Below are positions 95-43,744 of a stretch of DNA of 64,000 nt, in pieces. Positions within the stretch are counted from its first letter, which is position 1, and every line of letters starts with the position of its first letter. Under the pieces are notes generated by a model. It did no database searches and was not told where the DNA came from. It saw only the letters and a program-made list of their open reading frames with translations. A program made the position numbers and the translations under genes. Location of the stretch: positions 1-64,000 of the forward strand of contig PUQB01000762.1 of assembly GCA_003024785.1 (NCBI GenBank). The letters are read 5' to 3'. Origin of the DNA: Selaginella tamariscina. Lineage: Eukaryota; Streptophyta; Lycopodiopsida; Selaginellales; Selaginellaceae.

Positions 95-121
95 ATGCAC
101 GTTGTAACTAAAGTGAGCATG
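95..121 (+). repeat. Left terminal inverted repeat of copy 1
   Basis: About 27 bp that match the reverse complement of 14851-14878 with a few mismatches and a one-base gap. The core GTTGTAACTAAA is shared by all five element ends visible in the window. Left-type ends read GCACGTTG and continue to ATACGTGAAAATGGG. Right-type ends read GCAAGTTG and continue to GCTATAGTCCCATTTCC, so the two ends can be told apart. Confidence 0.8.
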
Positions 122-355
122 ATACGTGAAAATGGGAATATAAAATAAATTACTAATTAATACTTAAGTTTTAATTATTAATTAATCATTTAATTAATAT
201 GTAATTAAGCCTTAAATATTAATTAATTAATTAATTAATCCTTCAATAACCTTACTTAGTAAGGAATATTCCTAAAATATCTTAGAATATTCATATTATT
301 CTAAAAATAGTTTACAATAATGAAGAAATACTATCAAACATAATTACAAATGAAA
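122..355. repeat. AT-rich left subterminal region of copy 1
   Basis: No gene. It contains TTAATTAA-type runs (about 176-240) and palindromic GAATATTC motifs (AGGAATATTCCT near 262, AGAATATTC near 284). The same motifs recur at the opposite end (14730-14790) and in copy 3, so they may be transposase contact sites. That is inference. Confidence 0.5.
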
Positions 356-1545
356 TCATTTTCTTATCAACATGTTAATTTTTTTATAAATACTTTCTTC
401 TATCATACAAAGAAATCTTTTCATTTTGTCTAAATCATCACTCTCCGGATTAATCAAATCATTTTGGTCAATATCTTGATGTTGTTGCCACCACTTAACA
501 CTCTCACGAATGCAATTGGGAGTTGCCATCCTTGTTAATACATAAGATGTGATAAGAGAAGGTCTGCATAAAGGCTCATCTAAAAACTGACGTTCCTTAA
601 GAATAATATTATAAAGCGCCCGGTTGCTATCCTTCATTTTATAAAATTCAATATCACGAGAAAGAAAAGCTTCAGGAAATGTATGATACGGTGGATACTG
701 CTCACAAAAATTTTCGAGATTCTTCTTTCTGAGGCACGTATCCAAGTAGTTCACTAGCTCATCCATGATATCGGTATCAGAATATGGATCGAAAGTGATT
801 GGATGAATACAAGCAATGTTTTGGTTGAGCATAGCCTTCTGAGGAGAGTCGTCTACTACTAACATCTGTGCGTTCTTCATTATCCTTAAGCGACTGATCT
901 CCCCATGAGTCCCAATTATTCTTTCATTCTTGAAGAAGTATGGCTTGCTTTCCTTTCTTATATTGTGAAATTCGAGAGGTTTATAACATTCGCTGGTCAA
1001 AAATCCAATCTTTACGAATCACCTCTTCTGCAACACTACAATGTTTCTTAAGTAAATTCAACAGCGGTGTTAAGTTATGAATCTGCATGCATGACCAAAT
1101 CCCCACAAGCGCACCCATCTCCTTAAGCTTTTGAAAGAGACGATCCAACCCTGGACGAAAAATAATATCATATCGAAATTTACCATGACAAGGAATGAAA
1201 TCTCCTTGTTTGATTTCTTTTTTCTATCCTGGGCCTTTGTCGATGAAGCAGAACACCATTGACATCCAACAACACAATATGGCCATGAGTAACATGAGAT
1301 AGCGTTGCCTCTTGAATACTTTGCAAATCACTTGTTTGCTCCCTTTCACATTTATCCGTTGCCACTATCTCGTTGCCTATCCCTTCATCATTTAATTGTA
1401 CATCATCCTTACAAGATTCAGATATTGCATGCGCTGAAGAAATTGATTTCGGAACTGAAGCCAATAAAAATGATGATGAAGTGGCCCCCATGGTAACGAT
1501 GTTTTGAGCTGCATTATTATCCATTTCCTGCATGAACTCTGTCAT
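356..1545 (-). pseudogene. FCP1/NIF-like HAD-family protein gene, copy 1 (frameshifted)
   Basis: Same gene as the intact copy at 50027-51193. Start ATG at 1545 corresponds to MTEFMQEMDNN. The frame breaks at about 1230, just after the HAD motif LLDVNGVLLHRQRP, where GGATAG-type bases are lost. It breaks again near 988, where two bases are missing compared with copy 3 (CGAATGTTATAAA against CGAATGTGTTATAAA). The last third is open and keeps the VVDDSP motif. One extra indel changes the last residues compared with copy 3, so the true C terminus is uncertain. Copies 1 and 3 are otherwise nearly identical, so the breaks are recent or are sequence errors. Confidence 0.7.
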
Positions 1546-1816
1546 TCTGACATGTGGCACAAGAAATTGTCGCCAAACCCCTCTCTTACCTCATGCAATG
1601 CTGAAAATCCATGTTCTCAATTATTTCATTACATCTGCAAAATGATAATTAGCTGACCTTAAAATTATCAAGGTATATTATTTACCTTGTTAATGTGTGA
1701 CCCATGTTTGAACTAAAAGCTTCATTAATCCTTGAGAATTTATTTTCTGTACAAATATAAAAGAAATATACAAAAATGCCTTATGTTACACTCATTTACA
1801 ACTATTCATCACTCTA
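1546..1816. other. Spacer between the two left-module genes of copy 1
   Basis: About 270 bp with no long frame. It holds the 3' UTR and poly(A)-signal-like TTTATT on the minus strand of the upstream gene, and possible splice borders upstream of the HAD gene. In copy 3 these are an apparent intron at 49886-49936 with GTAAAT donor and TTTTGCAG acceptor. The HAD gene may therefore have a 5' leader here. Confidence 0.35.
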
Positions 1817-4800
1817 TCAATTCATTATCAATTCTTCTTCGCTATTACCTTCTGAGTGAGGCGAAGAAGGTCTAAGCCGCTTGTGAGATGGTTCAAGATC
1901 TTCTGCATCTTCTATTGATGTTTCCATGGGTCCTGGAGTGTGCGAATGTTCTGTACTCCTCGAGATAACTTCCGGTCTAATATCTGATTGAAGTTCGTTC
2001 TCAGACTCCGAGATTGAACCAGATTCACCTTCAGAGCTATCGCACTTATCTGGAGGGAACTTTCTCAAATACGCCTTTATGGATTCGTTGGGGTACTCAG
2101 TTGAGACCCAATCTATCCACTTGTTCAGGTCCTCAACCATGGTCTTATCCTTTTCAACGGCAAACACACATGTATGCCGAAGGTAACACTCCTTCAAGAC
2201 GGACCCCCTAGTGCAGTAGTCAAAAACCCACGCATCACTGTGAGGACCCCTGATCAAGTTGACGATGCTCCGTGCCGCTTGACTTGTAATGTTTGGATAA
2301 CGTACATTGCCGAATACGTCACTCATACCTATCGGTGTATCGGATGGAGGTTCAGGGCCGTTGGAGTGCAAACAGATGCCTGGCCAGTCATTTGGAAGCT
2401 TGAAATTGTTTGGCGCATTCCTAACAACCAAGTGAACAACGTATCAATGCACTTGGGATTAGCATCGTTCATATAAAATCCTGTCCAACGATGTCTATTC
2501 TTCTTGGCGAAGGCGAAGGCAAAAGTATCGGTGACATGAGCAAGAATCAAGAAATAAATACCTGAAAAAGTAGGTATCAGTGAAGAGCGCAAGCATGAAT
2601 TCAATAATAAATACCTTCTATGTATATGCTTGCACGGCTAAGTTTCTCCACCAGATCCTCTAGTGCCCTATCTGTCGAAAGATTTTTTGACACCCGCCGA
2701 TCCATCACGAACAATTGAAACGGTTTCCTACAAGCAGTGATGTTACCCCATAAAGTCTCCGAATCTAACAACAAACATCTGTAGGGCTTGTCGTGATTCG
2801 TAGCATCCTCCTTTATAAGGTTCAATTCGGTTCTCCGCTGCTGAAGGACTGCCATAAGAGAAGGCGTCATCCCAATGTTCTCCTTTTTGGCGTTGGCGTG
2901 CAATAGATTCTTGCCTAGATCTTCCGATTGGTTCACCCATTCGACAAGCATATCATCGTTCGTCACATGCAAATATTTGCTGACCTCTTCATATGTTGAA
3001 GTCGAGGTCCAACCCAGTTTGTGGCAGTGTATTCCCAACCACTCCTTGAAATGCCTGACCGTCTTCAACTCCATTGCCTTGAGATGAAAAGGAGAGGTTG
3101 GGCTGCTGTTATTAATTTGTAGTTTGCCATCGATCACCAAATCAGCCAAGACTTCCATCTCCTCCATCGTTGTTCCATTTAAAGGCTTCAACCATGTGAG
3201 CTTGAAATCGTTGTCTACATCCTTTAGATTGAACAGACTTAGCCTTCGGCGTCTTACTGGGTTTCTTTGCAGACTTTTCTGAGGGCTCCCCTTCACTTGT
3301 CTGCTTCTTCTTCAGTGTTCCTTTTGAAAAGGATTCCATAATCCCCAACCATTTGGCAAAGATCCTATCTTCGGGGCAAGAAATCAACATCATCAGAAAG
3401 GATGTTTCCTTCCCGCCCACCTGGGCAAAATCAACTGCTGCAATTTCTTCAACTCTCTGAGGAAAAAGACAGATTAATATACCGGCGAGATAAATCCCGC
3501 CCAAACAATTTGCTTACCCGGTATTCCGCAGATTGTGTATTCCCTGCGGTAGCTCTTTGTGGTCGCTGAAGAGATTCCCACACGGCTCGCGTGTGTTTAA
3601 ACTTCTCCCATATTTTGCTGTTGTAGTGGTTGGTGTCGGCAGCGTCCCATTCCGCCGATAACTTATGGTACTGCTCGATTGTGAGATTCGGCTTAGCTAA
3701 AAACGCCGATCTTTTTGTCAGCTTCTCACGGGTATGCTCGGAAAGTTTTGTTGCCATCGTTCCTTTGTTGTGTTCATCGAGAAGTCGTTGGGCTGCCGTT
3801 ATTGTGTGCTGGCCACTAATGATGTAGTACTTGATAGATTTTTATTCTCCGTCTGAATCTTCATGAGTTGTTCTGGTGTTGTGATCCAGACTTTGTCAGC
3901 GCCCTTCCTTCTTTCATAGTATGGACACAAAACAGCATTATGTGGAACGGTATAAGAATTGTCGTCCTTCATCTTCTCCATGAGCTCAGCTACACGTTCC
4001 TGGTTGAGTGGCCTGTAATTGAAGTTTGGGTTGACGCTGCAATATTTAACCCTACAAGGATAAATCTTATCATCCAACATCATTTCCTTGTGACTTATTG
4101 CAGCATGAGATGCCACAGGTGCAGCTGACAAAACGATTGATGATTTTCTTTTGCGATCCGAATCAACATGTGTGATCCCCGACTGCAGCTGTTCTAGTGT
4201 TCTCGGCACACTCTTCCAGCTCCCGAAGCTTCCTAAGCAAATTGAACGTGATCTGTAGAGAACCTGAGACCGAGCCACCCTTCTCAATCTCCCTTATGAT
4301 GTCGCTGTGTTCTTTCTTCAATGTGAAAGGGAAGATTGCTCCACTTGCTGATTTTCTGTATTGTGAAGCAATATCTCCTGACAATACACCTACTCGATGA
4401 GTCTGAAGATTTCGAAGTAGACATCCAGATGGATCCCCTCCATAGATGGGCTTTCGTTGAGTTGAAGAAGAACTCCAAGGTCAACATCATTAGTGAACAC
4501 GTGAACGTCATTATCCACAAGTCGACAAAACCACCCGAAATTAATGTTGTAACTGACGACCTCTGGATCCGAGAACGTGACATTGGATGGAACAAGGCAT
4601 ATGTGTCGAGCATCGTCCAATCTGGGTTCGCAGCCTGCTTTCGGGTGCTTGACTAGCGAATCTACTTTCCATTGTTTTGCTTGTCCATGAGATGTGACAG
4701 AGGTTAATTTGACAGCAGCCATGGTTGCTCCAATGCGCTTCCCATTTATCTTAAAATATGGCCAAGTTGATTCCAGAATCCCCCTGCCCATCTCTTCTCC

Positions 4801-4918
4801 TGCTCTTGTCTTTAATGTCACCTCAATTCCACATCTGAATACAAAAATGATTAGTTCAAGTATCCGAGTATAACAGATTTTATTTTAATTCTTACCCAGA
4901 ATTTGACGACGACTCCAT
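1817..4918 (-). pseudogene. ParB-like plus DNA-methyltransferase-like gene, copy 1 (frameshifted)
   Basis: Four exons on the minus strand: 4896-4918, 3518-4834, 2615-3456 and 1817-2561. The introns are 4835-4895 (61 nt), 3457-3517 (61 nt) and 2562-2614 (53 nt), all GT-AG and at the same places in copy 3. Parts of the frame are better here than in copy 3: the N-terminal exon joins cleanly (MESSSNSG-CGIEV) and the segment after intron 2 is open. Breaks are one- or two-base indels: in the LRKLREL region near 4220, before the ParB box near 3840, and at 3222 (two bases missing against copy 3). The product is described at 46652-49754. Comparing copies shows the ancestral gene was continuous apart from the unresolved break near 4220. 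Confidence 0.65.
3484..3501. repeat. Degenerate array palindrome inside intron 2 of the ParB/methyltransferase-like gene
   Basis: GGCGAGATAAATCCCGCC, a two-mismatch copy of the 18-bp array palindrome, lies within the 61-nt intron 3457-3517. Copy 3 has it at 48068-48085. Confidence 0.7.
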
Positions 4919-4957
4919 ACTAATGACTCGATCTCCTTGTTTGATCAAATCGTCCTT
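4896..4957 (-). other. First coding exon and splice acceptor of the left-module gene, copy 1
   Basis: A TTTTGCAG acceptor at 4958-4965 precedes 39 nt of leader and the ATG at 4918, with an in-frame join to the next exon over a 61-nt intron. The acceptor implies an upstream leader exon. In copy 3 a CACACAG|GTGAG donor lies at 43946/43947. In copy 1 the matching site near 7772 reads CACACAGTGAG, one G short. Confidence 0.5.
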
Positions 4958-5059
4958 CTGCAAAATAATACACTATAATACAAATCATATAAAAACGCAC
5001 ACACACTTGTATAAACCCGAATATACAAAAATAATACACAGAGAGAAGTAGACGTAATT

Positions 5060-5145
5060 AACTGTCCGAAGCTCACATTTGTGTAGTGCAAAAGAAAGAT
5101 AACATTTCGTTTTAGAACCACCACAAATGTGAGCTCTGGACAGTT
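5060..5145. repeat. Hairpin-forming inverted repeat, copy 1
   Basis: Arms of 24 bp (5060-5083 and 5122-5145) are complementary except for two adjacent bases, separated by a 38-nt loop. The arms contain AGCTCACATTTGTG and its complement. The hairpin lies in the presumed leader intron, between the palindrome array and the first coding exon, and is kept in all three copies. Confidence 0.85.
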
Positions 5146-5259
5146 TTACATAGATTCCTAGCTTTTACTCGAAATATTATGATAAGATGATAAAAGTAAA
5201 TAAAATGAGATATGCAACTTATATATACTAATACACATATATATTCACATGGAAGGTGC

Positions 5260-6816
5260 GGCGGGATTAATCTCGCCACCCCTTCAATGCCTCCTGAAAG
5301 AGTGGGCGGGATTAATCTCGCCACCTTTCTGGAGGCCTTGAACGGGAGTGCGGAATTAATCTTGCCACCCTTCTCGGTCTCAGAGAGAACTGGGCAGGAT
5401 TTATTTCTCACACCCCTTCAGTGACTCCAGAAAGGAGGCGGGATTAATCTCGCCCACCATGTAAGGATGGTTAAATGAATTTCCCCACCCTTCCCAATTC
5501 TCTCCATTGGTATGTTGAAACCTTCTACGTCTCAGACAGAAACGTTTGGGATTGGTCCGACTCACCAATGGAGAAAAAGGAAGGGTGGCGGGATTCATTC
5601 CTCCAACAGGCATTGAAGACTCGGCGGGATTAATCCCGCCGCCCAGGGCCTTCACTCGGTCCCTATGCGGCGGGATTAATCCCGCCGGACGCCAATTCCC
5701 TGCGCGGAATCGGGCGGGATTAATCCCGCCGCCTAGGCACTTCAGGCAGGCCAATGGCGGCGGGATAAATCCCGCCCGATTCCGCGCAGGGCATTGGCGC
5801 GGCGGGATTAATCCCGCCTCCCAGGCCCTTCACTCGGCCTTAGTCGGCGGGATTAATCCCGCCGAACGCCAATGCCCTGTGCGAAATCTTGCGGGATTAA
5901 TCCCGCCGCCTAGGCCCTTCAGGCAGGCCAATGGCGGCGGGATAAATCCCGCCCGATTCCGCGCAGGGCATGCGTACGCGGCGGGATTAATCCCGCCCAC
6001 CATGTAAGGGATGGTGAAATTAATCCCACCACCCTTCTCAGTTCCCTCCATTGGTATTTTGTAAACCTTCTCCGTCTCAGACAGAGTTAGTCGGGATTGA
6101 TTCAACATACCAATGGAGGAAAAAAAGGGTGGCGGGATTAATCCCGCCACCGGGTAATGAAGGTTCGGAGAGACTAATCCCGCCGCCCTCTCGTAAATCA
6201 TGCGCTCACACATATATATTGGCTGCGGCATTTTGAACAGGGATGGGTGGGGGCGGGATTAATCCCGCCGCTTATATCCTGCGGAAGTGCCTGAGCGGCG
6301 GGATTAATCCCGCCGCCCTCCGCGAAGGGCATGAGCGTGGGGATTAATCCCGCCGTTCATGTCCTGCGTGAATTCCCTGGGCGGCGGGATTAATCCCGCC
6401 GCCTTACGCGCAGGACATGTCATGCAGGCTCTTCGGTTAGCCTTCCGTGCAGGATCTTTCATGCAGGCTCTTCGGTTAGCCTCATGAGCGGCGGGATTAA
6501 TCCCGCCGCCCATCCCTGTAAATGCCCTGCGCGGAATCCGGCGGGATTAATCCCGCCCATTAGGGCCTTCACACAGGCCATTGCCGGCGAGATAAATCCC
6601 GCCGCATTCCGCGCAGGGCATGGGTGAGCGGCGGGATTAATCCCGCCGCCGAGGCCCCTCACGCAGGCCATGGGCGGCGGGATTAATCCCGCCGCTCTTC
6701 GGTTTGTCCTAGAGCGGCGGGATTAATCCCGCCGCCGCCCTATGGCCCCAACCAATGCGGCGGGATTAATCCCGCCGCCGAGGCCATAAACCTATAGCGG
6801 CGGGATTAATCCCGCC
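5260..6816. repeat. Palindrome array A of copy 1 (ParB/methyltransferase side)
   Basis: Some 30-odd units of the 18-bp perfect palindrome GGCGGGATTAATCCCGCC or close variants (ATAAATCC and TCTCGCC forms), mostly 40-48 bp apart. The spacers are themselves related, with recurring GCCCTGCGCGGAATC and CACTCGG-type words. The array gives long spurious reading frames on both strands (GGINPA/AGLIPP repeats) that are not genes. Variants increase toward the gene-proximal end (5260-5560), where units read TCTCGCC. Confidence 0.95.
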
Positions 6817-6839
6817 GCTCGAGGGGCTTAGCGTGTGTG

Positions 6840-6896
6840 CGAGAGATAAAATTAATAAATAAAAAAATTATACAGATAAAAACACACACATATATA

Positions 6897-6934
<38 letters not shown>

Positions 6935-7770
6935 GTATATGTATGTATGTATGTATGTATAGGAGTGTACGTGTGTGTGCAAGAGATAGATAAATAAATA
7001 AAATTATACAGTACTGGTACACATAATATATGTGTGTACATAGGTATATATATGTGTGTATATGTATATCGTGTGTATGCGTGTGAGCGAAACAAATAAA
7101 ATCATACAGATAAACAAACACACACACACACATATATATACACAGGAGTGTGCGTGTGTGTGCGAAAGATAAAACTAATAAATAAATAAAATTATACAGA
7201 TAAACACACATATATATGTGTGTATATAGATATATAATCCATAGAAAAAGAGAGAGTCTGTGAATATATAAGCATATATATAAACTAGTGTTGTATACTA
7301 TTTGTTAATATGCATTGATTATATATATATATATATATGTTAAAGCAGTGTGCGTGTGTGTGGGAGAGATAGATCAATAAAAAAAATTATATAGATACTG
7401 GTACACATAATATATGTATGTATATATGTATATAGGTATATATAATATGTGTATATGTATATTGTGTGTATGCGTGTGTGAGCGAAACAAATAAAATTAT
7501 ACAGATAAACACACACATATATAATGTGTGTATATAGATATATAACCCATATGAATATATATAGCATATATATAAAACTAGTGTTGTATACTATTGTTAA
7601 TATGTATTGATTATATATATATATATATATATGTACAGCAGTGTGCGTGTGTGTGGGAAGAGAAGATTAATAAAAACAAATTTATAGATACTGGTACACA
7701 TAAAATTATACGCACACTCCTATACTATATACATACATACATATACACACACACACACACACACAGATCT
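6840..7770. repeat. Microsatellite block of copy 1
   Basis: (TA)n, (GT)n/(CA)n, (GTAT)n and (ATAC)n tracts mixed with a higher-order unit containing GTGCGTGTGTGTGCGAGAGA, then AATAAAATTATACAGAT and ACTGGTACACATAATATATG, repeated several times. Reading frames rich in His, Thr, Tyr and Ile here are repeat artefacts. Confidence 0.9.
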
Positions 7771-7960
7771 CACTGTGTGCACAGCCGCCGGCCGCCGATT
7801 TCACAACCGCCGCCTCTTGAAACCCTAAGAATATACCTAAACCCTAAAGGAATTAAATATATATATTAACCCTAATAGAATATTCCTTCTGAGAATATAC
7901 TTAAACCCTAAAAAGAATAAAATATAGATTCGCCTAAACGAATATTCTTTCATTATATTA
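7771..7960 (-). promoter_or_regulatory. Telo-box-rich putative leader/promoter of the left module, copy 1
   Basis: A GCCGCCG-rich stretch (7785-7815) is followed by several AAACCCTAA or ACCCTAA motifs (about 7820-7915) in an AT-rich context. In plants, telo-boxes near GCCGCC-rich 5' leaders are common in promoters of growth-related genes. The equivalent stretch in copy 3 (43745-43946) ends in a good splice donor pointing toward the left-module gene. Promoter activity is inferred from position and composition only. Confidence 0.4.
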
Positions 7961-7989
7961 TTAGCGCGTGCGTGTGCGTTGGTGTATCA

Positions 7990-8900
7990 CATACACCCCA
8001 AAAAATATAAATCATGCAGGGATTTAACATGTATGTCCATGAGAGTGTTAAAGTTTCATGTGTATCAATATACATACACATTGCATATATTATACACATA
8101 ATATATACACACATTGCATATATAATACAACATAATATATACATACACACGTGTATACACACAGACATACATACATATTACATGGGTTTAGGTTTAGGGT
8201 TTAGGGTTTTGGATTTAGGATGGATCATGCATGGTGTGTATGTATGAGAGAAGAGAGTGTTGAAAAATTATTTTTGTACACATTGCATATATTAGTACAC
8301 ATATATACTTACACATATTATACACAGATATACATACATAGTATATGAGAGAAGAGAGACAGTACATATTATGGATCATGCATGGTGTGTATTATACACA
8401 CAGACATACATACATATTAGTACATAATATTAGAGAGACCGAGTACATATTATAGATCATGCATGGTGTGTATGTTTGAGAGAAGAGAGACAGTACATAT
8501 TAACATGGATCATGCATGGTGTGTATGTATGAGAGAAGACAAAAGTACACATATATACATACAGAGTACACATATATACATACACACGTGTATACACACA
8601 GACATACATACATATTACATGAGTAAATTCATTGTGTTACATATTAGGGTTTAGGGTTTAGGGTTTAGGATGGATCATGCATGGTGTGAAGAGAGTGTTG
8701 AAAAATTATTTTTGTACACACATGTAATAGGGTTTAGGGTTTAGGGTTTGCTCCCAACAAGCTTAATATAAATATTACACATGTAAATTCAATGTGTTAC
8801 ATACACACAGATTGAGTACATATATCATACATGCGTTGAACATGATGTTTTCAATAAAGAAGCAACATATTTCTTCAGTTTGGTTTAGGGTTGTGCATGT
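7990..8900. repeat. CATGCATGG-type repeats with interstitial telomere motifs, copy 1
   Basis: Repeated units around GGATCATGCATGGTGTGTATG followed by AGAGAAGAGAGACAG and TACATATTA, plus ACACGTGTATACACACAGAC units. Plant telomere runs (TTTAGGG)2-3 occur near 8186-8212, 8645-8668 and 8728-8749. No coding potential is seen. Confidence 0.8.
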
Positions 8901-8989
8901 GTGTGCATATGTGTTTTTGTAAGTTCTTGTAATGCGTGTGTAAATTTATGATTGTGTTTATATATGTGTGCAAAACAAACATCGAATAA

Positions 8990-9800
8990 TTAAGAAAATA
9001 ATATTAATAAACACACTATGAACATATTTTAAATTATACATAATAATATATGATTTTATCTAATATATAGCCATATATAGTTTTAATAATATATATTAAT
9101 TTAATATTGATAAAAAGGTTTAACATTGAAATATTCTTGAAATAATAAGAAATTAATTGAGAAAATCCCATTAATATATACAAATGTAAATTAAGTACTC
9201 AAATAATTAACTAAATTAATTATCATAATCATGTTTAATATTGGAATATTCTTGGAATAATAAGAAAATAATAAAGAATATCCCATTAATATAAAGAAGA
9301 TTAATTACTCAAGTAATTAAGGAAATGATATTAATATTAAAACTATGAACATATTTAATTATACATAATAATACATCATTTATTATATATGTCATATATA
9401 GTTTTAATAATATATATTAATTTAATATTGATAATAAGGTTTAACACATGAATATTCTTGAAATAATAACAAATTAATTGAGAAAATCCCATTAATATAT
9501 ACAAATGTAGAATAATTACTGCAATAATTAAGAACAAGACTAATTTAATTATGATAATCAGGTTTAATATTAGAATATTCTTCAAATATTAATAAAATAA
9601 TAAAGAATATCCCATTGATACTAGGAAATGAAAACTAAATACTCGAGTAATTAAGAAAATAATAATAATAAACAGACTATGAATATATTTTAAATGATAC
9701 ATAATAATATATCAATTTATTTATTGTATAAGTATATATTTATATATATATATAATATAAATATACTTGAATACTAAGAATGTAGAATATAGTCTAAAAT
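8990..9800. repeat. AT-rich degenerate tandem repeats, copy 1
   Basis: At least four related units of roughly 115-130 bp built on the words GAATATTCTTGAAATAATAA, ATCCCATTAATAT and TACTC(A/G)A(G)TAATTAA, starting near 9130, 9247, 9448 and 9573. No gene is seen. Copies 2 and 3 have the same block. Confidence 0.75.
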
Positions 9801-10019
9801 TTCGTAATATTAAACAGCTTGAATCACTTGAATAACATTAAATGCAATTTTAAAATACTCATTGGAACTGGAGAGTATATATGTCAGAGTGTCGGATATT
9901 TGTGTCAACTCATCTTAAATTTTATTTTCTGTTCTTTTTAAAAAATTTGAATTTCTGACATATGTATTGTCGGTCTGACATGTAAATTTGAAAATGCATT
10001 TAATTTCCCACTCAAATTC

Positions 10020-10172
10020 AGATCTGGTTCTTTCTCCGGCAAGGGTTTCTTCATTTCTGTATTTTTCACTCTTTAGATCTTCTTTTTTCTTCATAGTGAT
10101 CATCTCAGGAGCGAGATTAAATTGGGTGCTATTCTTTATAGGAAAGCACGGCGCCTTCAGTGCTGTTTACAA
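10020..10172 (+). promoter_or_regulatory. Putative 5' leader exon of the transposase gene, copy 1
   Basis: A CT-rich stretch (TTCTTTCTCC to CTTCTTTTTTCTTC) resembling a plant 5' leader is followed by GGCGCCTTCAGTGCTG and a good donor, TTTACAA|GTAAGTATT, at 10173. The acceptor TTATTTATGTGCAG ends at 11246. This would put array B inside a 1,074-nt leader intron. Copy 3 keeps the donor. In copy 2 it has decayed to GTATTATA. This is inferred from splice-site appearance only. Confidence 0.45.
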
Positions 10173-10342
10173 GTAAGTATTATAAACAAATTTAAAAATA
10201 CTTATAAAGATTCACTCTCTTACATTCTCTCTTAAAATTACAATTTAGGGGTTTAGGAATGCATTAGGATTATAATATATTCCGTTAGGGATTTATCCCG
10301 TTTAAATATCCTTTTAACTTAATATTCTAGGTTAACCGGGGC

Positions 10343-11099
10343 GGCGGGATTAATCCGGCCATTTCTTTTTCGCCTCTTCGAAGAGGTGGCGGGATTAATC
10401 CCGCCACCATCTCTCGGGCAATGCTTCTCCGCCACTGAAAAAGAGTGGCGGGATTAATCCCGCCGATAACCTTCTCAACTGATGAAGAGTTACCAGAATT
10501 TATTAGAAAGAGTTGTCGGCGGGATTAATCCCGCCAACCATTTTAGGAGGCAGGGAAGGGGTGGCGGGATTAATCTCGCCACCACATCCCTGTTTTAAGG
10601 ATTTGGGGACAGGATTTATCCCGAGATCTCTTTGAAATCATAGTTTTGGAGAGAGTTATGTGCGGGTTTAATCCCGCCACCCATTCCCCGTCGTAAGAAT
10701 TGTGGGCGGGATTAATCCCGCCTTGGACTCCCTCCGACAAGGAAGAGCCGGCGGGATTAATCCCGCCGCTCCCCCGAGGGGAAGAGGCGGCGGATTAATC
10801 CCGCCGACTCTTCCGGCGAGGGAGTCGGCGGGATTAATCCCGCCGACTCTCCTCGTCGAGAGAGAGTCGGCGGGATTAATCCCGCCGACTCCTCTCCGAG
10901 AGAGTCGGCGGGATTAATCCCGCCGGACTCCCCCGAGGAGGAAGGCGGCGGGATTAATCCCGCCGGCTCTTCCTTGTCGGAGGGAGTCCAAGGCGGGATT
11001 AATCCCGCCGACTCTCTCCGAAGGGGTTGAGTCGGCGGCGGGATTAATCCCGCCGACCGTTCCTCGTCGGAGGGATTCGTGGGCGGGATTAATCCCGCC
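10343..11099. repeat. Palindrome array B of copy 1 (transposase side)
   Basis: About 16 units of GGCGGGATTAATCCCGCC, mostly perfect in the gene-proximal half (10705-11099), 36-70 bp apart. The spacers here are CTCTCCGA/CGAGGAAG words, often in inverted pairs around the palindrome and different from array A spacers. The array ends about 150 bp before the first coding exon of the transposase. Confidence 0.95.
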
Positions 11100-11252
11100 C
11101 ATCAGTTGTATTAATCAAACATGAGATATTATCTCTAAACATAATTATGTATTATTGCATATGCATATTATTAAGTAACCGTAATTCAGATTTCTTAAAA
11201 TATTGCATAAACAGATATCATAAATAATACAATTATTTATGTGCAGGACAAT

Positions 11253-14200
11253 ATGTTTAATACTGGAGATAAAGTATGTCTTCTTCGGAACAACGAGATA
11301 GTTGGCACTGGAACTGTGGAAGTTCGAGATAATAATGCATCATGTCACAATATTGCCCAAGGATCTTGTGTGTACGTATGGGTGAACACCATTTACAAGC
11401 ATGTTGAGGTTCTGGGAATGGAATTTGAGGAGGGTTCTCCTGTATTGTGGAATTTGGATGAAGTCAAGGCTGACACAGAATATGCAGAGTCACAAACAAA
11501 TAGTAGCACGAGTTTACCAGATGATGGCTTGCCTGCTGTGATGGATGAGGTGATTCTCTTTCTTCGTGAGATTGAAGTCGGAAGAGGCATCATCACAGCT
11601 ATAAATCCAATGGAAGCAGTGTCAGAAGAGAAACTAGGGTCCGACTTCGTGGGTGTAGTTGTGACAGAGGTTTCACCTAATGGCACATTGTATCCTGGAT
11701 CCCTCGTGAGGTGGCGAACATCTGAATTAAGACGGCAAGATGGTTCAACATATTCTGGGTTGGATTTCAATAATAACAACCCGGAAGAACAACTCATATT
11801 TGAAGAGGTTCCTTGCATTGGTCCTATTGTAAGAAAAAGGCGATTCATGGGTTGTAGATCTTCCCCTGCAAGTTTCAGCAAGAGGGTAAAGATGGATCCT
11901 ACATCTTCCGAAAGTGTTACGAGCATTTCCACGATTGACTGTTGCAAGAAGAAGTGTTGTCAGATGGCAGACCGGAATGAAATTACCCAATGTAGACATG
12001 TCTTTCGTATGCTCACCCAAAAGCAAAGGCATGAGTTTGTATATGCTGCACTAACTGGGTGTATTGATGGAATGGCCTCGGACACAGGTTATCAGAGTAC
12101 ATCCATGGTATTTAATAAGGTGGCCATCTGCTTCAAAGCTTGGTACAGTATATACGGGATCCCAAAGACCACGTTCTACCGTCGGAGGGATGAGTGGCTA
12201 GATGGAGCGCGAACCTCAGTTCATGGGAACACTCGCTTGGTCAAAACCCGCTCTCACATCATGGCAGCCATAGAGATACTCAAGGCTTTTGTGGAAGCAA
12301 ATGCAGACAGGATGCCTCACAAATGCCGAACCACAAATGCAGGGGTCAGGGAAAATCTCAAGGTTTTGCCTTCAATCTACACTCAATTGAAACTGTGTGA
12401 ACATGTGAACAAGTGCCTCAGTTTGATGGGGCTCCAAGCAATCTGCACTGGTACCTTCAACAACATATGGAATACTCATTTTAAGGATGTGGAGATTGCA
12501 AAACACTCTAGCTTTTCTAAGTGTGACACTTGTACATCATTGAAGGCTGCAGAGGCTTGTGCAAAAACCTTGGTGGAGATCACTACCATTCAAAGGAAGA
12601 TGGAGGCCCACATGATTGCACAACAAACTTGCCGGTCTCAGTACTATGCACACCGCATGCTTTCTGTGTCACGCCCATCAGAGTACCTGTGCTTGATCCA
12701 TGACAAGATGGATCATTCAAAGACCAGCATTCCAAAGCTCTTTGCAACACCAAAGTGCCTTGGAAATGTCATGAAACTTCCGATTTCATTGACAGGTGTG
12801 CTAACACATGGACACGGTTGTGAGTCATATGGACACTTTTCACTTCCACATTGGTCTAGCGACTCCAATTTCACTATTGGGTCGTTAGCCATGTGTTTCA
12901 GAAACCTTGAAGCCCACTCACAGACAAGTCCTATCAGTGATCTCAAAGTGAAGAAACAACACCTTCAACCTTTACATAATGCTCTCATGAACACGTCTGC
13001 ACTTGAGGCTACTTGGGAATATGAGAGGCATTGTCAGCAGCCTGCACAAAAAATAGATGGCCCTGTTGAGAGTTCAGGTTCAGTGGAGGGATCTAGCTCA
13101 AATAGTGTACATGTGTCCTCAACATCAAATAAGCTTCCTCGTCATTTGCTTTTACAGATGGATAATTGTGCAGGCGAGAACAAAAATAGGTAAATCATTT
13201 TACTTAAGGGTTTCTCAAGCTCATACTTACTTTTATTTTCTAGATATGTGCTAGCATACTTGTCAATGCTTGTTGCCAAAGGTGTGTTTGAAACAATCAC
13301 GCTCAGTTTCCTTATGGTTGGTCACACTCATGAAGATATTGATGCGTTCTTCAGCAAGGTCTCCAACTCTACAAAAAGGACAAGTGCACTTACCTTACCG
13401 CATATGATGAATCTTTTTGAAAATTGCATCTCCAAAAAAAGTTGTGCTTTGCTTGTGACTGAGGTGCCAGACTTCAAAAAATTTCTCAAGGAGTATATAA
13501 AAGAAGGGAGTGATTCTTTAGTTGGTCACCTTGTGCCGCTACAATTCTTTTTCTCCATACGAGATGGTATACCTATTATGCAGTACAAGTTACGGCCATC
13601 AGAGCAGGAGTGGTTACCGAAAGAGGGCTTAATGCTCTTCAAAAGTGGAGAGGATGGAAAGCCACTTCTCCCAGAAGGACAACCAGACCCTATTCCATTG
13701 AGTGCCCAGCTCAAGGAACAAGAGGTTATTATTGATGGCATCAAAAAATATGTGGCATGGGTTCAAAAATCGATGCCAAAGAATTCTGATAAGGCAACTG
13801 GTTACTCAGAACTATATAAGCATGTGGTCAACTATTGGGAGACTGTTGTTCGAGAGTTGGAAGGGCCTACTGTCACAAGTACAGAATTGCAACACCCTTT
13901 CTGGCCTAAAACAAGGTGGCGAGAGGAGATTGAAATGACATCACTGAGCATAGACGACATAGAAGCCAGTAGTGATGTGGAAGTGCAAACCCCACACTTT
14001 GTTGGACAAAGGAACCAAAAACCTAAAGCATACTTTGATTGCTGCAAGGATCTTCAAAAACTAATGATGGTTCTCATTACTCCAGATGCGTCATATAATC
14101 AGCCTATTTGGATGGGTCAAATTATCGACACACCTGAAGTAATCACAAAAAATAGTATTGTTAAGGTTGCATGGTTCAAACCACAAAAAAGGCGACACGA

Positions 14201-14372
14201 GAAGGAGAGCGAAAGATATAATGGATGCCTAGAGAAAACATGGTCTCCCAATCAAAAAGACCCAGCATGTTTTATAAATGTTAAATCCATTCGATATGGG
14301 TGGATGTCAAGAAGCGTTGATAAAGTCACGATTAACAAAACTGCAAGGGAATGTATGTTTTCTGAAGCTTAA
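11253..14372 (+). CDS. DUF7869-like RNase H-fold transposase, copy 1 (intact, 2 exons)
   Basis: Exons 11253-13189 and 13244-14372 join over a 54-nt GT-AG intron (between KNR and YVLAYL) to give about 1,021 aa. I chose ATG 11253 because a good splice acceptor ends at 11246. Residues about 1-75 resemble the Tnp1/En-Spm-like N-terminal domain (DKVCLLRN, GTGTVEV, VYVWV). Then come a Cys cluster (CCKKKCC), a second (FSKCDTCTSL), and a core with IHDKMDH (D484, D487), LLQMDNC (D637) and HTHEDID (E676, D677, D679). These acidic residues are plausible RNase H-like catalytic positions. The core resembles plant and protist proteins carrying DUF7869. The C-terminal QPIWMGQIID region looks like a small beta-barrel. 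It is the only fully open copy here and the best candidate for the mobilising enzyme. The catalytic assignment is inference. Confidence 0.8.
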
Positions 14373-14850
14373 AGCAATTACAAAATTATAAAATATCATA
14401 TATTTAATATTCATAATTATTATAAACTCTTTAATAATAGTACCAAATTGTATACTTAACTATATAAATTTAAAAAATGATATGGAAGATTGACTATATT
14501 ATTATAGGATTTTATATATATATTATTACTACTACAAATTTTTAATTAATAATGTTATATTTAAATATTAATATTTTAATAACAACATCAATATTTATAT
14601 AATGTACCTCTTATGCTCTTCCTTAATTGTTATATTAGGCAATATATTATATAATTTAATACATTCTACTTTTATAATGTTATTAATTTTTTTCAATGAA
14701 TGCTATAATTTATTAAAGGGTAGAATACAAAATAGAATATTCTAAAGAATATTCTTTTTCAAACATATATTCTAAAGAATATTCCTTTAATATTAGAAAA
14801 TGCTAATTAAATAGCTAAAATTGCTAATTATTAGGAAATGGGACTATAGC
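14373..14850. repeat. AT-rich right subterminal region and 3' UTR, copy 1
   Basis: No gene. Poly(A)-type and AT-rich sequence, then clustered AGAATATTCT palindromes (about 14734-14790) mirroring those at the left end. It is almost identical in copies 2 and 3. Confidence 0.6.
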
Positions 14851-14878
14851 CATGCCCATTTTAGTTACCAACTTGCAT
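14851..14878 (-). repeat. Right terminal inverted repeat of copy 1
   Basis: Reverse complement begins ATGCAAGTTGGTAACTAAAA. It pairs with 95-121 and is nearly identical to 36772-36798 (copy 3) and 26064-26089 (copy 2). Confidence 0.8.
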
Positions 14879-14882
14879 CTTA
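14879..14882. other. Putative target-site duplication CTTA, right side of copy 1
   Basis: Second half of the duplication described at 91-94. Copy 2 sequence resumes immediately after it with TGAATGAGGCGAAGAAGG. Confidence 0.55.
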
Positions 14883-17087
14883 TGAATGAGGCGAAGAAGG
14901 TCTAGGCCGCTTTGTGAGATGGTTCAAGATCTTCTGTATCTTTTGTTGATGTTTCCATGAGTAATGGAGTGTGTGAATGTTCTGACTCCTCGAGATAGCT
15001 TTCGGTCTAATATCTGATTGAAGTTTGTCCTCAGACTCTGACATTGAACTAGATTCATCTTCAGAACTATCGCACTTATCGGGAGGGAACTTTCTCAAAT
15101 ACTCCTGTATGGGTTTGTTGGGTAGTCAATTGAGAACCTTTCTATCCACTTGTTCAGGTCCTCAACCATGGTCTTATCCATTTCAACGGCAAACACACAT
15201 GTTATCCCAAAGGTAATACTCCTTCAAGATGGACCCCTAGTGCAGTAGTCAAAAACCCACGCATCACTGTGAGGACCCCTGATCAAGTTGACGATGCTCC
15301 GTGCCGCTTGACTTGTAATGTTTGGATAACGTACATTGCCAATACGTCACTCTCAGCTATCGGTGTATCAGATGGAGGTTCAAGGCCGTTGGAGTGCAAA
15401 CAGATGCATGTCCAGTCATTTGGAAGTTTGAAATTGTTTGGCGCATTTCTAACAACCAAGTGAACAACCAAATCAATGCACTTCGGATCAACATCATTCA
15501 TATAAAATCCTGTCCAATGAAGTTTATTCCTCTTGGCAAAGGCAAAGGCAAAGGTATCGGTGACATGAGCAAGAATCAAGAAATAAATACCTGAAAACGT
15601 AGATATCAGTCAAGAGTGCAAGTATGAATTCAATAATAAATACCTTCTTTGTACATGCTTTGCACGGCTAAGTTTCTCCACCAAATCCTCTAGTGTCCTG
15701 TCTGTCGAAGGATTTTTTGACACCCGCTGATCCATCATGAACAATTAAAATGGTTTCCTACAAGCAGTGATGGTACCCCATAAAGTCTCTGAATCCAACA
15801 ACAAACATCTGTAGGGCTTGTCATGATTCGTAGCATCCTCCTTTATAAGGTTTAACTCGGTTCTTCGCTACTGAAGGACTGCCATAAGAGAAGGCATCAT
15901 CGCAATGTTCTCCTTTGGTGTTGGCGTGCAATAGATTCTTGCCCATATCTTCCAATTTGATTCACCCATTCGACAAGCATATCATCGTTTGTCACATGCA
16001 AATATTTTCAGAGCTCTTTGTATTTTGTGGCAGTGTATTCCCAACCACTCCTTGAAGTGCCTGACCGTCTTCAACTCCATTGCCTTGAGATGAAAAGGAG
16101 AGGTGGGGCTGCTATTGTTAATCTGTAATTTGCCATCAATCACCAAATCAGCCAAGACTTCCATCTCCTTCCATCGTTGTTCCATTTAAAGGCTTCAACC
16201 ATGTGAGCTTGAAATCGTTGTCTACATCCTTTATAGATTGAACAGACTTAGACTTTGGGATTGCAGCATGGGATGCCAAGGTGCAGTTGACAAAACAACT
16301 GATGATTTTCTTCTACGATCCGAATCAACATGTGTGATCCCGATTGATGCTGTTCTAATGTTCTCGGCACACTCTTCCAGCTCCCGAAATTTTCTAAGCA
16401 AATTAAACGTGATCTGTAAAGAACCTGAGACCGAGCCACCCTCTCAATCTCCCTTATGATGTCACTGTGTTCTTCTTCAATGTGAAGAGGGACGATTGCT
16501 CCACTTGTGGATTTTCTGTATTGTGAAGCAATCTCTGCTGAGAATACACCCTACTCGATGAGTCTGAAGATCTTCGAAGTAGACATCCAGTTGGATCCCC
16601 TCCATAAATGGGCTTTCGTTGAGTTGAAGAAGAACTCCATGGTCAAACATCATTAGTGAAGACATGAACGTCATTATCCATGAGTCGACAAGACCACCCG
16701 AAATTAATGTGTAACTGGCGACCTCTGGATCCGAGGAACGTGACATTGGATGGAACAAGGCATATCTGTCGAGAATCGTCCAATCTGGGTTCGCAGCTTG
16801 CTTTCGGGTGCTTGACTAGCGAATCTACTTTCCATTGTTTTGCTTGTCCATGAGATGTGACAAAGGTTAATTTGACAGCAACCATGGTTGCTCCAATGCA
16901 CTTCCATTTATCTTAAAATATGGCCAAGTTGATTCCAGAATCCCCCTGCCCATCTCTTCTCCTGCTCTTGTCTTTAATGTCACCTCAATTCCATATCTGA
17001 ATACAAAAATGATTAGTTCTTCAAGCACATATCCGAGTATAACAGATTTTATTTTAATTCTTACCCAGAATTTGACGACGACTCCAT
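14883..17087 (-). pseudogene. Methyltransferase-like gene of copy 2, ParB domain deleted
   Basis: Remnant of the gene described at 46652-49754, start ATG at 17087. It is broken by the copy 1 insertion: the last codons are at 1-90. It carries many indels and, near 16250-16262, jumps directly from the KSVQS linker sequence to the region encoding HAAIS upstream, removing about 0.85 kb that encodes the ParB-like domain and intron 2. The methyltransferase-like part (14900-15950) is recognisable but full of frameshifts. It cannot make the full protein. Confidence 0.75.
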
Positions 17088-17228
17088 ACTAATGACTCGA
17101 TCTCCTTGTTTGATCAAATCGTCCTTCTGCAAAATAATACACTATGAATACAAATCATTATAAAACGCACACACACTTGTATAAACCAAATATACAAAAA
17201 TAATACACAGAGAGAAGTAGACGTAATT

Positions 17229-17315
17229 AACTGTCCGAAGCTCACATTTGTGCTAGTGCAAAAGAAAGATAATATTTTGTTTTAGAACCACCACAAATGT
17301 GAGCTCTGAACAGTT
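17229..17315. repeat. Hairpin-forming inverted repeat, copy 2
   Basis: Arms 17229-17252 and 17292-17315, equivalent to 5060-5145, with one further mismatch in the second arm (CTGAACAG). Confidence 0.8.
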
Positions 17316-17429
17316 TTACATAGATTCCTAGCTTTTACTCGAAATATTATGATAAGATGATAAAAGTAAATAAAATGAGATATGCAACTTATATATACTA
17401 ATACACATATATATTCACATGGAAGGTGC

Positions 17430-18546
17430 GGCGGGATTAATCTCGCCACCCCTTCAATGCCTCCTGAAAGAGTGGGCGGGATTAATCTCGCCACCTTTTT
17501 GGAGGCCCTGAAAGGGTGTGCGGGATTAATCCGCCACCCTTCTCGGTCTCAGAGAGAAACTAGGCAGGATTTATTTGGCACACCCCTTCAGGGGCTCCAG
17601 AAAGGCGGCGCGATTAATCTCGCCCACCATGTAAGAGATGGTGAAATGAATCTCGCCACCCTTTCTCAGTCCCCTCTATTGGTATATTGTAAAACCTTCT
17701 TCATCTCAGACAGAAACGTTTGGGATTGGTCTGACTCACCAATGGAGGAAAAAAAGAAGGGTGGCGGGATTCATCCCTCCACTAGGCATTGAAGGCTCGG
17801 CAGAATTAATCCCGCCGCCCAGGCCCTTTCCACAGGCCATGTGCGGCGGGATTAATCCCGCCGAATTCTGCACAGGGCATGGGCGTGCAACGGGATTAAT
17901 TCTGCCGCCCATGGCCTCCGTGCTGGGCCTAAACGGCGAGATTAATCCCGCCGCCCACGCATGCCCTGCGTAGAATTCAGCAGGATTAATCCCGCCGCAT
18001 GCCCATGCCTTGTGCGAAATCTGGCGGGATTAATCCTGCCGCCTAGGCCCTTCGGATAGGCCTTTGGCGGTGGGATAAATCCCACCAGATTCCGCACAAG
18101 GGATGCGTACGCGGCGGGATTAATCCCGCCGTCTAGGCCCAGCACGTAGGCCATGGGCGGCGGGATTAATCCTGCCGGACGCCCATGCCCTGCGCAAAAT
18201 CCGGCGGGATTAATCCCGCTGCCTAGACCCTTCCGATAGGCCATTGGCAGTGGGATAAATCCTGCCGGATTCCGCGCAAGGCATGCGTAGGCGACGGGAT
18301 TAATCCCGCCGCCTAGGCCCAACACGCAAGCCATGGCTGGCGGGATTAATCCCGCCGCTCTTCGGTTAGCTTCATGGACGGCGGGATTAATCCCACCGCT
18401 CATGAGACTAACCGAATAACCTACCTGAAATGGCAGCGAGATTAATCCCGTCGCTCATGAGGCTAACCGAATAGCCTGCCTGAAAGGCGCGGGATTAATC
18501 CCACCACCGAGGGTCTAACCATATAGCGACGGGATTAATCCCGCGC
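17430..18546. repeat. Palindrome array A of copy 2 (degenerate)
   Basis: The same array as 5260-6816 but shorter and more eroded. Many units have one or two changes at the CpG positions (CCCACC, CCTGCC, GGTGGG), consistent with C-to-T decay of methylated CpG. Confidence 0.9.
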
Positions 18547-18547
18547 T

Positions 18548-18843
18548 ATACACATATATATATTTATATGTATATGTGTGTGTAGGAGAGTGCGTGTGTG
18601 TGCCAGAGATAGACAAATTAGATAAAATTATACTGATACACACACCATATGTATATGTATATGTATATCGTATGTGTGTGCTAAATAAATTAAATATACA
18701 TACACACACACACACACACATATATATATGTATATGTATATTTATGTATATGTATATGTATATACAGGAGTGTGCGTGTGTGTGCGAGAGATACAATTAA
18801 CAAATCAATAAAATTATACAGATACACACACATATATGTGTGC

Positions 18844-18879
<36 letters not shown>

Positions 18880-18968
18880 GTATAGGAGTGTGCGTGTGTG
18901 TGCGAGAGATAAATAAATAAATAGAATTATACAGATACTGGTACACATAATATATGTATGTATATAAG

Positions 18969-19003
<35 letters not shown>

Positions 19004-19190
19004 ATGTATATCGTGAGTATGCGTGTGTGAGCGAAACAAATAAAATCATACAGATAAACAAGAGTGTGCGTGTGTGTGCGAAAGATAGAGATTTAAATTA
19101 TATTATTAAGATACAAACACATATAAATATATATGTGAATAAAAATAAATAAAAAACTCAGGAGTGTGCATGTGAGAGAGAGAGATCTCA
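18548..19190. repeat. Microsatellite block of copy 2
   Basis: TA, GT/CA and GTAT tracts with the AGGAGTGTGCGTGTGTGTGC higher-order unit, as in 6840-7770. No gene is seen. Confidence 0.85.
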
Positions 19191-19400
19191 CCTATGTGGT
19201 GTGAGAGAGATCTCATAGCCGCCGCCTCCACCGCCTTGCTCTTGAAACCCTAGGAATATACCTAAACCCTAAAAGAAATAAAATATATATTAACCCTAAT
19301 CGAATATTCCTTTTAAGAATATATTTAAACCCTAAAAAGAATAAACTATAGATTCGCCCTAAACAAAATATTCTTTCATTATATTATCAGCGTGTGCGTG
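19191..19400 (-). promoter_or_regulatory. Telo-box-rich putative leader/promoter of the left module, copy 2
   Basis: A GCCGCCGCC-containing stretch followed by AAACCCTAG, AAACCCTAA and AACCCTAAT motifs, matching 7771-7960. On the minus strand a CACATAG|GTGAG donor lies near 19193. Function is inferred. Confidence 0.35.
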
Positions 19401-19439
19401 TGCGTGGGTGTACACATACACCCCAAGAATAAAAATCAT

Positions 19440-20300
19440 GCAGGGGTTTAACATGTGTGTGTCCATGAGAGTGTTAAAAGTTTCATTGTGCAGCGATACA
19501 TATATACACACATAGTATTATACACATAGACATACATACATATTAGTACATATTAATATTAGAGAGACAGAGTACATATTATGGATCATGCATGGTGTGT
19601 ATATATGAGAGAAGAGAGACAATACATATTATGAATCATGCATGGTGTGTATGTTTGAGAGAAGAGAGACAGTACATATTAACATGGATCATGCATGGTG
19701 TGTATGTATGAGAGAAAAGAGAGAGTGTTAACAAATTAAATTCATACATATTGCATATATTAGTACATACACACGTGTATACACACATACATACATACAT
19801 ATTAATGTGTAAATTCAATGTGTTACATAGGGTTTAGGGTTTAGGGTTAGGATGGATCATGCATGGTGTGTATGTATGAGATGAGTGAGTGTTAAAAAAT
19901 TATTTTTGTAACATTGCATATATTAGTACACATATATACATACACATATTATATACAAATATACATTATACATAATACATAATATTGTAACATCAGTACA
20001 TATTATGGATCATGCATGGTGTGTATGTATGAGAGAAGAGACAGGCTACATATTATGGATCATGATCATGCATTGTGTGTATATATGAGAGAAGGGATTA
20101 TGCATGGTGACATTGTGTATGTATGAGAGAAGAGAGAGAGTGTTAACAAATGAAAAATCGTACACATTGCATATATTAGTACATATTTACATACACACGT
20201 GTATACACACAGACATACATATATATTACATGTGTAAATTCAATGTGTTACACATGATGTTTTTCAATAAAGAAGCAACATAAATTTCTCAAGTTTGGTT
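19440..20300. repeat. CATGCATGG-type repeats with telomere motifs, copy 2
   Basis: Repeated GGATCATGCATGGTGTGTATG and AGAGAAGAGAGACAG units, with a short TTTAGGG run near 19830-19850. Confidence 0.8.
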
Positions 20301-20399
20301 TAGGGCAATGTGCATGTGTATGCAATATGTCTCTGTAAGTGCTTTTAATGCGTGTGCACGTGTATATATAAAATTTATGATTGTGTTTATATATGTGTG

Positions 20400-21230
20400 C
20401 AAAACAAACATCGAAATAATTAAGAAAATAATATTAATAAAACACACTATGAACATATTTTAAATTATACATAATAATATATAATTTTATCTAATATATA
20501 GCCATATATAGTTTTAATAATATATATTAATTTAATATTGATAATAAGGTTTAACATTAGAATATTCTTGAAATAATAAGAAATTAATTGAGAAAATCCC
20601 ATTAATATATTACAAATGTAGATCAAGTACTGAAATAATTAACTAAATTAATTATGATAATCATGTTTAATATTGAAATATTCTTGCATAATAAAAAATA
20701 ATAAAAGAATATCCCATTAATATAAAGAAGATTAATTACTCAAGTAATTAAGAAAATGATATTAATACACACACTATGAACATATTTTTAAATTATACAT
20801 AATAATACATCATTTTATCTAATATATAGTCATATATAGTTTTTAATAATATATATTAATTTAATATTGATAATAAGGTTTAACATAGAATATTCTTGAA
20901 ATAATAACAAATTAATTGAGAAAATCCCATTAATATAAAAAAATGTAGAATAATTACTGAGATAATTAAGAATAAGACTAATATTTATAGAATCAGGTTT
21001 AATATTGAAATATTCTTTGAATATTAAGAAAATAATAAAGAAATCCATTAATAGTAGGAAATGTAAATTAATTACTCGAGTAATTAAGAAAATAATAATA
21101 TAAACAGACTATGAATATATTTTAAATGATACATAATAATATATCAATTTATTTATTGTATTAGTATATATATATATATATAATATAACTTAATAATATA
21201 TACTTGAATATTAAGAATGTAAAATAATTA
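20400..21230. repeat. AT-rich degenerate tandem repeats, copy 2
   Basis: Equivalent of 8990-9800 with small indels. No gene is seen. Confidence 0.7.
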
Positions 21231-21766
21231 CAAAAATTTCGTAATATTAAACAGCTTGAATCACTTGAATGACATTAAATGCAATTTTAAAACACTCATT
21301 GGAATTGGAAAGTATATATGTCAGACTGTCGGTTATTTGTTTCAACTCATTTTAAATTTTCTTTTCTGTTATTTTCAAAAATTTCGAATTTCTAACATAA
21401 GTATTGTCGGTCTGACATGTAAATTTGAAAATGCATTTAATTTTCCATTCAAATTCAGATCTGATTCTTTCTCCCTTCATTTTTTTATTTTTCACTCTTC
21501 AGATTTTCTTTTTTCTTCTTAGTGATCAGCTCAGGAGTGACATTAAATTGGGTGCGCTATTGTTTATAAGAAAGTACAACGCCTTCAATGCTATTTACAA
21601 GTATTATAAACAAATTTAGATATATTTATAAAGATTCACTCTCTTACATTCTCTCTTAAATTTAGAATTTAGGGGTTTAGGAATGCATTAGGATTACAAT
21701 ATATTCTGTTAGGGATTTATCCTGTTTAAATATACTTTTAACTTAATATTCTCGGTTAGCCGGAGC

Positions 21767-22555: not shown

Positions 22556-22709
22556 CATCAGTTGTATTAATAAAGCATGAGATATTATCTCTATACATAA
22601 TTATGTATTATTGCACATGCATATTATTAAGCAATCGCAATTCTGATTTCTTAGAAATATTACATAAACATATATCATAAATAACATAATTATTTATGTG
22701 CAAGACAAT

Positions 22710-42850: not shown

Positions 42851-42889
42851 ACACATATATAAACACAATCATAAATTTACACACGCATT

Positions 42890-43720: not shown

Positions 43721-43744
43721 AGGTGTATGTGATACACCCACGCA

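Follow-up and report, generated by a model that had tools for sequence, protein, structure and literature searches.

In bacterial ParB-parS systems, palindromic sites are clustered, and the VANDAL elements are transposons of the Mutator-like type. According to the parts of the reports used here, VANDAL elements encode the anti-silencing protein VANC, with which methylation is lost (PMC5735166, PMC10398659); VANC motifs form arrays in introns and upstream regions, are nearly private to a family and, as demonstrated experimentally, are bound by VANC, the VANC21 motif being the 9-base YAGTATTAY (PMC5735166). A second relevant system is Sola1-1_Ec32 of the brown alga Ectocarpus, a giant Sola-1 transposon in which a gene for a ParB plus DNA-methyltransferase protein lies opposite the transposase. 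The sections of that report used here put forward that proteins of this type may bind the transposon encoding them and modify it, and they cite cases from green and red algae (PMC12477816). Because of the Ectocarpus element, a ParB-methyltransferase gene opposite the transposase of a giant transposon is a known kind of arrangement (PMC12477816, same sections).

We analyzed a window of 64,000 nucleotides, the whole stretch examined, at the start of a contig of Selaginella tamariscina. The unit at 95..14878 is a real 14.8-kb cut-and-paste DNA transposon that encodes a DUF7869 transposase. This copy A (14,784 bp, plus strand) starts with the left terminal inverted repeat ATGCACGTTGTAACTAAAGTGAGCAT (95..120, plus) and ends with the right one, ATGCCCATTTTAGTTACCAACTTGCAT (14852..14878, minus), and it sits inside a second copy, B. 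The insertion of A into B was deduced because the sequence left of A (1-94) continues at 14879 onward, the two parts matching copy A positions ~1767-1850 and 1850 onward, and because the 4-bp CTTA is duplicated. Copy B thus consists of positions 1-94 together with sequence past the window start, and of a right part at 14879..26089 (plus) that is decayed, with internal deletions and with a stretch of the transposase missing. Copy C (36772..51482, minus) is complete. In a self-comparison of the window, A and C were 98-99% identical in the gene parts and ~93-94% identical in the middle, and the identity of copy B was 88-93%, but 98% over the last 2.4 kb. The sequence-only reading of this locus had described three copies of one unit with shared inverted ends, which was borne out for A and C, whereas B is only partial.

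The terminal inverted repeats are imperfect and ~26 bp long. Complete elements were listed with their target duplications, as the sequence-only reading had suggested: among 13 copies checked for ends, both ends were readable in 10, and nine of these had identical 4-bp flanks (TTAG, TATG, AAGG, ATAA, CTTC, ATAA, CCTT, ATGT and CTTA), the exception being copy C, which has no visible 4-bp duplication (GCAT/CAAT). The element therefore has the inverted ends, the target duplication of fixed length and the encoded transposase of a terminal-inverted-repeat transposon, and its duplications have the 4-bp length of the Sola superfamily, a length given for Sola2 in the part of the report used (PMC3627910). 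Several other features were observed in and around the copies. Short tandems of the plant telomere-type repeat TTTAGGG occur in the element middle (8184-8219, 8644-8669, 43075-43104 and 43533-43569). A direct repeat of ~960 bp, 86% identical (51503-52458 and 62510-63465), adjoins the end of copy C and perhaps represents long terminal repeats. A host-like ABCG-type ABC transporter lies between the copies, within 28646-35053 on the minus strand (ABC2_membrane, E=3.8e-14; ABC_tran, 4.9e-8), where minus-strand frames also resemble a VWA-type protein by eye, with no Pfam match.

The genome searched comprised 300.7 Mb in 1391 contigs. The C-terminal domain of LEAFY was present in it at one place (two exon matches, E=1.7e-53 and 3.2e-24) and in 0 of 14 control genomes, which assigns the host to the streptophytes, i.e., land plants together with related algae. 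DUF7869 gave at least 300 genome matches (150 of 4250 first-look places were scored), and all eight loci taken from this search belonged to the family of the window element (~95-99.6% over the transposase part). Ten further copies, chosen by transposase matches, were all collinear with copy A over the span between the minus-strand genes and the transposase, both included; internal gaps occurred, the majority of them in the middle part. The gene set does move as one giant transposon, as had been proposed. One copy, C1182, lacks element positions 10230-12428, i.e., the upstream array R described below and the greater part of transposase exon 1. A 185-aa stretch of the ParB-like protein described below was 100% identical at 128 of 150 scored places and 99% identical at the other 22 (4866 first-look places). 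One of the 128 is copy C of the window, and the genome total is thus at least 150 places. At 20 of the 150, the stretch lay in an open frame of 477-478 aa, which could hold the whole of exon 2. The left element end was found in full length at at least 40 places (40 scored of 1333 first-look candidates). The terminal inverted repeat was present at 29 of 30 left-end loci, and the 28 usable flanks, counted without the one locus lacking the repeat and another whose flank was too short, were all different by eye, one locus being within another copy. The element is abundant, high-copy and recently active in this streptophyte plant genome.

The transposase gene occupies 11253..14372 on the plus strand, with coding exons at 11253-13189 and 13244-14372 separated by an intron placed by eye. 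The two exons matched DUF7869 (PF25273) at 47.2 and 94.1 bits against a curated cut-off of 26, confirming the earlier assignment. A set of 5.8 billion proteins (5494 candidates) yielded three relatives, P0001-P0003, which are 33-37% identical; two of the three have a precomputed DUF7869 annotation, and acidic motifs are kept across them. From its place in the element, we infer that DUF7869 is a transposase domain. Two minus-strand genes diverge from the transposase gene, with long structured arrays between, as had been described. The first, a HAD/NIF gene, is broken in copy A (356..1590, minus; open reading frames at 359-1018, 984-1223 and 1183-1590), and in copy C it forms an open frame of 388 aa (50027..51193, plus) with the motif LLDVNGVLLH. 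The copy C protein matched the Pfam family NIF (E=7.9e-12; 45.6 bits against a cut-off of 21.8), and its earlier description as an FCP1-like HAD gene was upheld. The catalytic motif of HAD proteins is DxDx(T/V). In the five displayed copies aligned there, LLDVNGVLLH departs from this motif in that the second Asp is replaced by Asn.

The second minus-strand gene is the large accessory gene, which spans 1817..4918 in copy A (exons 4896-4918, 3518-4834, 2615-3456 and 1817-2561, by eye) and 46653..49754 on the plus strand in copy C, where frame breaks are present. The GT and AG of its three introns are conserved in all 12 copies compared. On the other hand, the whole frame is open in none of the 12, scattered one-base indels being found, which may reflect decay or assembly error. 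By eye, its motif order recalls that of a ParB/methyltransferase protein (CSVNPNFNYRPLN...ISGQHTITAAQRL; VFDYCTRGSVL). The expected SAM and catalytic stretches read DYCTRGS (DYCTRGP in copy B) and DSETLWG or DSETYGG in six displayed copies. However, ParB/methyltransferase homology stayed at chance level in Pfam, NCBIfam, PHROGs, PDB sequences, proteins, phages and viral contigs. Specifically, none of 8000 and 5997 candidates scored in the protein set passed, the phage search gave one match at E=7 and three at E=9, and in IMG/VR two sets of pattern matches, numbering 1 and 8, yielded no confirmed case. The ParB_N profile had zero genome-wide matches at E<=10 (the control matched in 11 of 14 genomes), the N4/N6 methyltransferase profile was unmatched by the accessory gene, whose motifs are degenerate, and AlphaFold2 run on the single sequence of the ParB-like part returned a mean pLDDT of 39, a value too low to weigh for or against the fold. 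The sequence-only reading had called this gene ParB/methyltransferase-like and had itself named beforehand a lack of profile support for these folds as one way of refuting it; the folds were not supported at profile level, leaving the motif order seen by eye, and for this reason we call the gene no more than ParB-like. Just upstream of the gene, an interrupted inverted repeat was seen by eye at 5055-5160, around CTCACATTTGTG / CACAAATGTGAG, with a counterpart in copy C at about 46425-46515.

The arrays between the divergent genes consist of near-copies of one perfect 18-bp palindrome, GGCGGGATTAATCCCGCC, spaced by ~45 bp and numbering 24-45 per copy in 12 copies; the sequence-only reading had seen that structured arrays are present and was silent on their make-up from a single private palindrome. 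Array L (5260..6816) lies upstream of the ParB-like gene and array R (10343..11099) upstream of the frame that encodes the transposase. Array R is probably inside a 5' intron whose donor (about 10171) and acceptor (11246) were placed by eye. A degenerate site is located in the second intron of the ParB-like gene (3484-3501; 48068 in copy C). With up to three mismatches allowed, 115 sites (57 exact) were found in the window against 0.01 expected; copy A accounts for 44, copy B for 34 and copy C for 37, the rest of the window having none, and exactly 45 bp separated 16 neighbouring pairs of exact sites. Copies A and C and the ten further copies had 29-45 sites each, apart from C1182, where array R is missing and 24 sites were counted. 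Across 58 loci, 366 sites fell in element-homologous sequence (some loci overlap each other or the window), and the palindrome was absent from the 57,392 non-element bases of these loci and from the window's other 23,201 bases. An outer half-site common to these arrays and to the second family described below was considered and rejected, as AGTC precedes only 7 of the 57 exact palindromes.

We then compared the palindrome with its surroundings. Over 446 units from 12 copies, which were themselves selected by palindrome similarity, the 18 palindrome positions had an information content of 1.49-2.0 bits, and flanking or linker positions had 0.02-0.52 bits. In a copy-to-copy rate test, 13 comparisons were made: linkers had changed significantly more than palindromes in nine of them, once at p=0.049, and the other four gave no significant difference, palindromes having changed more in one of them (p=0.051); a fourteenth pair was dropped for having too little sequence. 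We place weight on the information content rather than on the rate test because shifts of the unit confound the latter. These private palindrome arrays may be how the element recognizes its own copies. A search of titles and abstracts, in which few subscription journals were covered, found no palindrome arrays beside ParB-like transposon genes, and this counts as weak evidence of absence.

Both accessory genes bear signs of purifying selection, as judged from codon comparisons. The main test compared copy C136 with copy C for the accessory genes and with copy A for the transposase; each value comes from a single copy pair with uncorrected p, and 0-35 gap or stop codons were dropped per comparison. 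The ParB-like gene gave dN/dS of 0.12 in exon 2 (p=1e-8; 22.5/136 synonymous and 11.5/518 non-synonymous), 0.15 in exon 3 (p=1e-7; 21/166 and 13/638), 0.43 in exon 4 (p=0.03; 11/151 and 18/563) and 0.44 in the N-terminal part (p=0.07; 9/104 and 14/361). The HAD gene gave 0.39 (p=0.02; 10/204 and 16/825), and the transposase gave 0.23 in exon 1 (p=2e-5; 19/420 and 16/1512) and 0.20 in exon 2 (p=0.02; 5/231 and 4/894), so that per-site synonymous changes exceeded non-synonymous ones throughout. When copy B, which is decayed, served as the reference, most ratios were closer to 1, with 0.32 for ParB-like exon 2 (29 codons only), 0.87 for exon 4 and 0.57-0.83 for the transposase parts, but exon 3 stayed at 0.22 (74 codons skipped). 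These values bear on the idea that the element carries its accessory genes as captured passengers and that the palindrome array is a functionless satellite that has spread. The failure to find homologs, the variation of array size from 24 to 45 sites among 12 copies and the weakness of selection in HAD and in some parts of the accessory gene would suit that idea, but constraint in ParB-like exons 2-3 equals or exceeds that in the transposase, the gene set is the same in all ten extra copies, and the palindrome is nearly invariant amid randomized linkers; we consider it very improbable.

The reading that we prefer, to which we give a probability of roughly one half, is that the element is a plant variant of the Sola1-1_Ec32 kind with a VANC-like self-recognition module made of a protein and an array. 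The ParB-like accessory protein would bind the palindrome as a symmetric dimer, each copy would thereby be marked by ~40 clustered sites, and binding would regulate the element's own promoters across all copies, or shield them from silencing, as VANC does in VANDAL. The methyltransferase-like part would probably be related to the algal giant-transposon ParB-methyltransferases, though divergent from them and possibly inactive, and the HAD/NIF-like protein would be accessory. Judged against the part of its description used here (PMC12477816), Sola1-1_Ec32 is likewise a giant cut-and-paste transposon with a large gene, read as ParB-like plus methyltransferase-like, opposite the transposase. It is longer (21.5 kb, against 14.8 kb here), its protein has 1104 aa against ~970 codons here, the HAD/NIF gene and the degenerate methyltransferase motifs set the window element apart, and palindrome arrays do not appear in that part of the description. 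Thus, the earlier statement that no plant element with this gene set was known is partly answered by Ectocarpus. VANC is the closest worked-out mechanism, and by analogy, the window element appears to fit its plan with a palindromic site: both have an accessory gene and a short motif densely repeated in tandem arrays that are intronic or upstream and nearly private, although binding was demonstrated for VANC in the report sections used and is inferred for the window protein. The clustered palindromic sites beside a ParB-like gene also recall ParB-parS; unlike in that system, the window protein is not matched by the ParB profile, a ParA-like gene was not noticed, and a segregation role is not suggested.

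A second family in the same genome provided a comparison for the methyltransferase part. The N6_N4_Mtase profile had at least 150 scored matches (739 candidates); those listed were all over the cut-off, nearly all covered profile positions 163-220 of 221, and the window contig was not among them. The family was examined at two places, on contig C982 (loci L059 and L061) and on contig C14 (L060). At C982:526500-536500 (L061 and L059), a plus-strand gene with the motif DGNHR is ParB-like by eye and had no match to the ParB profile; its methyltransferase end matched PF01555 at 39.6 bits (cut-off 26.7) over 56 profile positions and contains a GSGTG stretch, unlike the DYCTRGS of the window gene. 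The divergent minus-strand gene has a SWIM-like finger (E=0.0014) at 18.5 bits, just under the cut-off of 19.6. Between the two genes lie five perfect palindromes of 22-28 bp, ~40 bp apart, with the common core CCCAGTCGGCATGCCGACTGGG. The prediction that an equally distant palindrome array would accompany further methyltransferase matches was followed in three upstream stretches of 1.3-1.4 kb: at L064, the L061 palindrome occurs twice in perfect form, and this locus probably belongs to the same family, L062 has the half-site CAGTCGGC as split inverted copies without a perfect palindrome, and L063 has neither palindrome nor half-site. This second high-copy family is likely a transposon, and it is a candidate for a transposon family carrying DNA-methyltransferase cargo in the same plant.

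The second family resembles the window element in its divergent genes, in an array of perfect palindromes ~40 bp apart and, by eye, in a ParB-like motif (DGNHR), but it differs in having an N6_N4_Mtase match over the cut-off, the palindrome CCCAGTCGGCATGCCGACTGGG and a SWIM match instead of DUF7869. Similarity between the two was undetectable: in a profile comparison of the accessory gene with the second-family protein (L059/L060), scores fell below the best of 40 shuffles both for the methyltransferase part (14.7 against a shuffle maximum of 18.5; reversed, 13.8) and for the ParB part (16.3 against 20.9; reversed, 10.3). An alternative is that the accessory protein is an active ParB-methyltransferase that modifies the array with N6-methyladenine or N4-methylcytosine. 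We regard this as improbable: the motif order seen by eye in exons 3-4 and the Ectocarpus proposal (PMC12477816, in the part used) speak for it, whereas methyltransferase profiles are unmatched and the DYCTRGS/DYCTRGP and DSETLWG/DSETYGG stretches are unlike the GSGTG of the second family.

A further explanation is that the palindrome is bound by the transposase or by a host cell-cycle factor, the arrays being S-phase enhancers and the accessory proteins being otherwise employed. Plant transposons have amplified E2F sites. In favour of this explanation, the half-site GGCGGGAT resembles an E2F site, and each of the two divergent genes has an array upstream of it; however, a different palindrome adjoins the second family's own methyltransferase-like gene, and GGCGGGAT is absent from that family's six loci. 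These two observations fit a site coupled to the accessory gene better than one host factor, and we hold the host-factor or transposase explanation to be rather unlikely. Returning to self-recognition by the accessory protein, it is conceivable, and we put it forward tentatively, that a ParB-like protein and a private array of long palindromes together make up a portable module for marking or de-silencing self copies in at least two unrelated repeat families of this genome. By analogy with parS, each family might then have its own palindrome, bound by its own protein, a suggestion that is equally tentative.

For the algal ParB-methyltransferases, binding to their own element has been proposed, and the DNA target is unnamed in the part of the report used here (PMC12477816); the palindrome arrays offer concrete, testable targets. 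The present element extends this kind of transposon to a streptophyte plant. If the reading is true, plant transposons would have a second route, besides VANC, to recognize and free their own copies.
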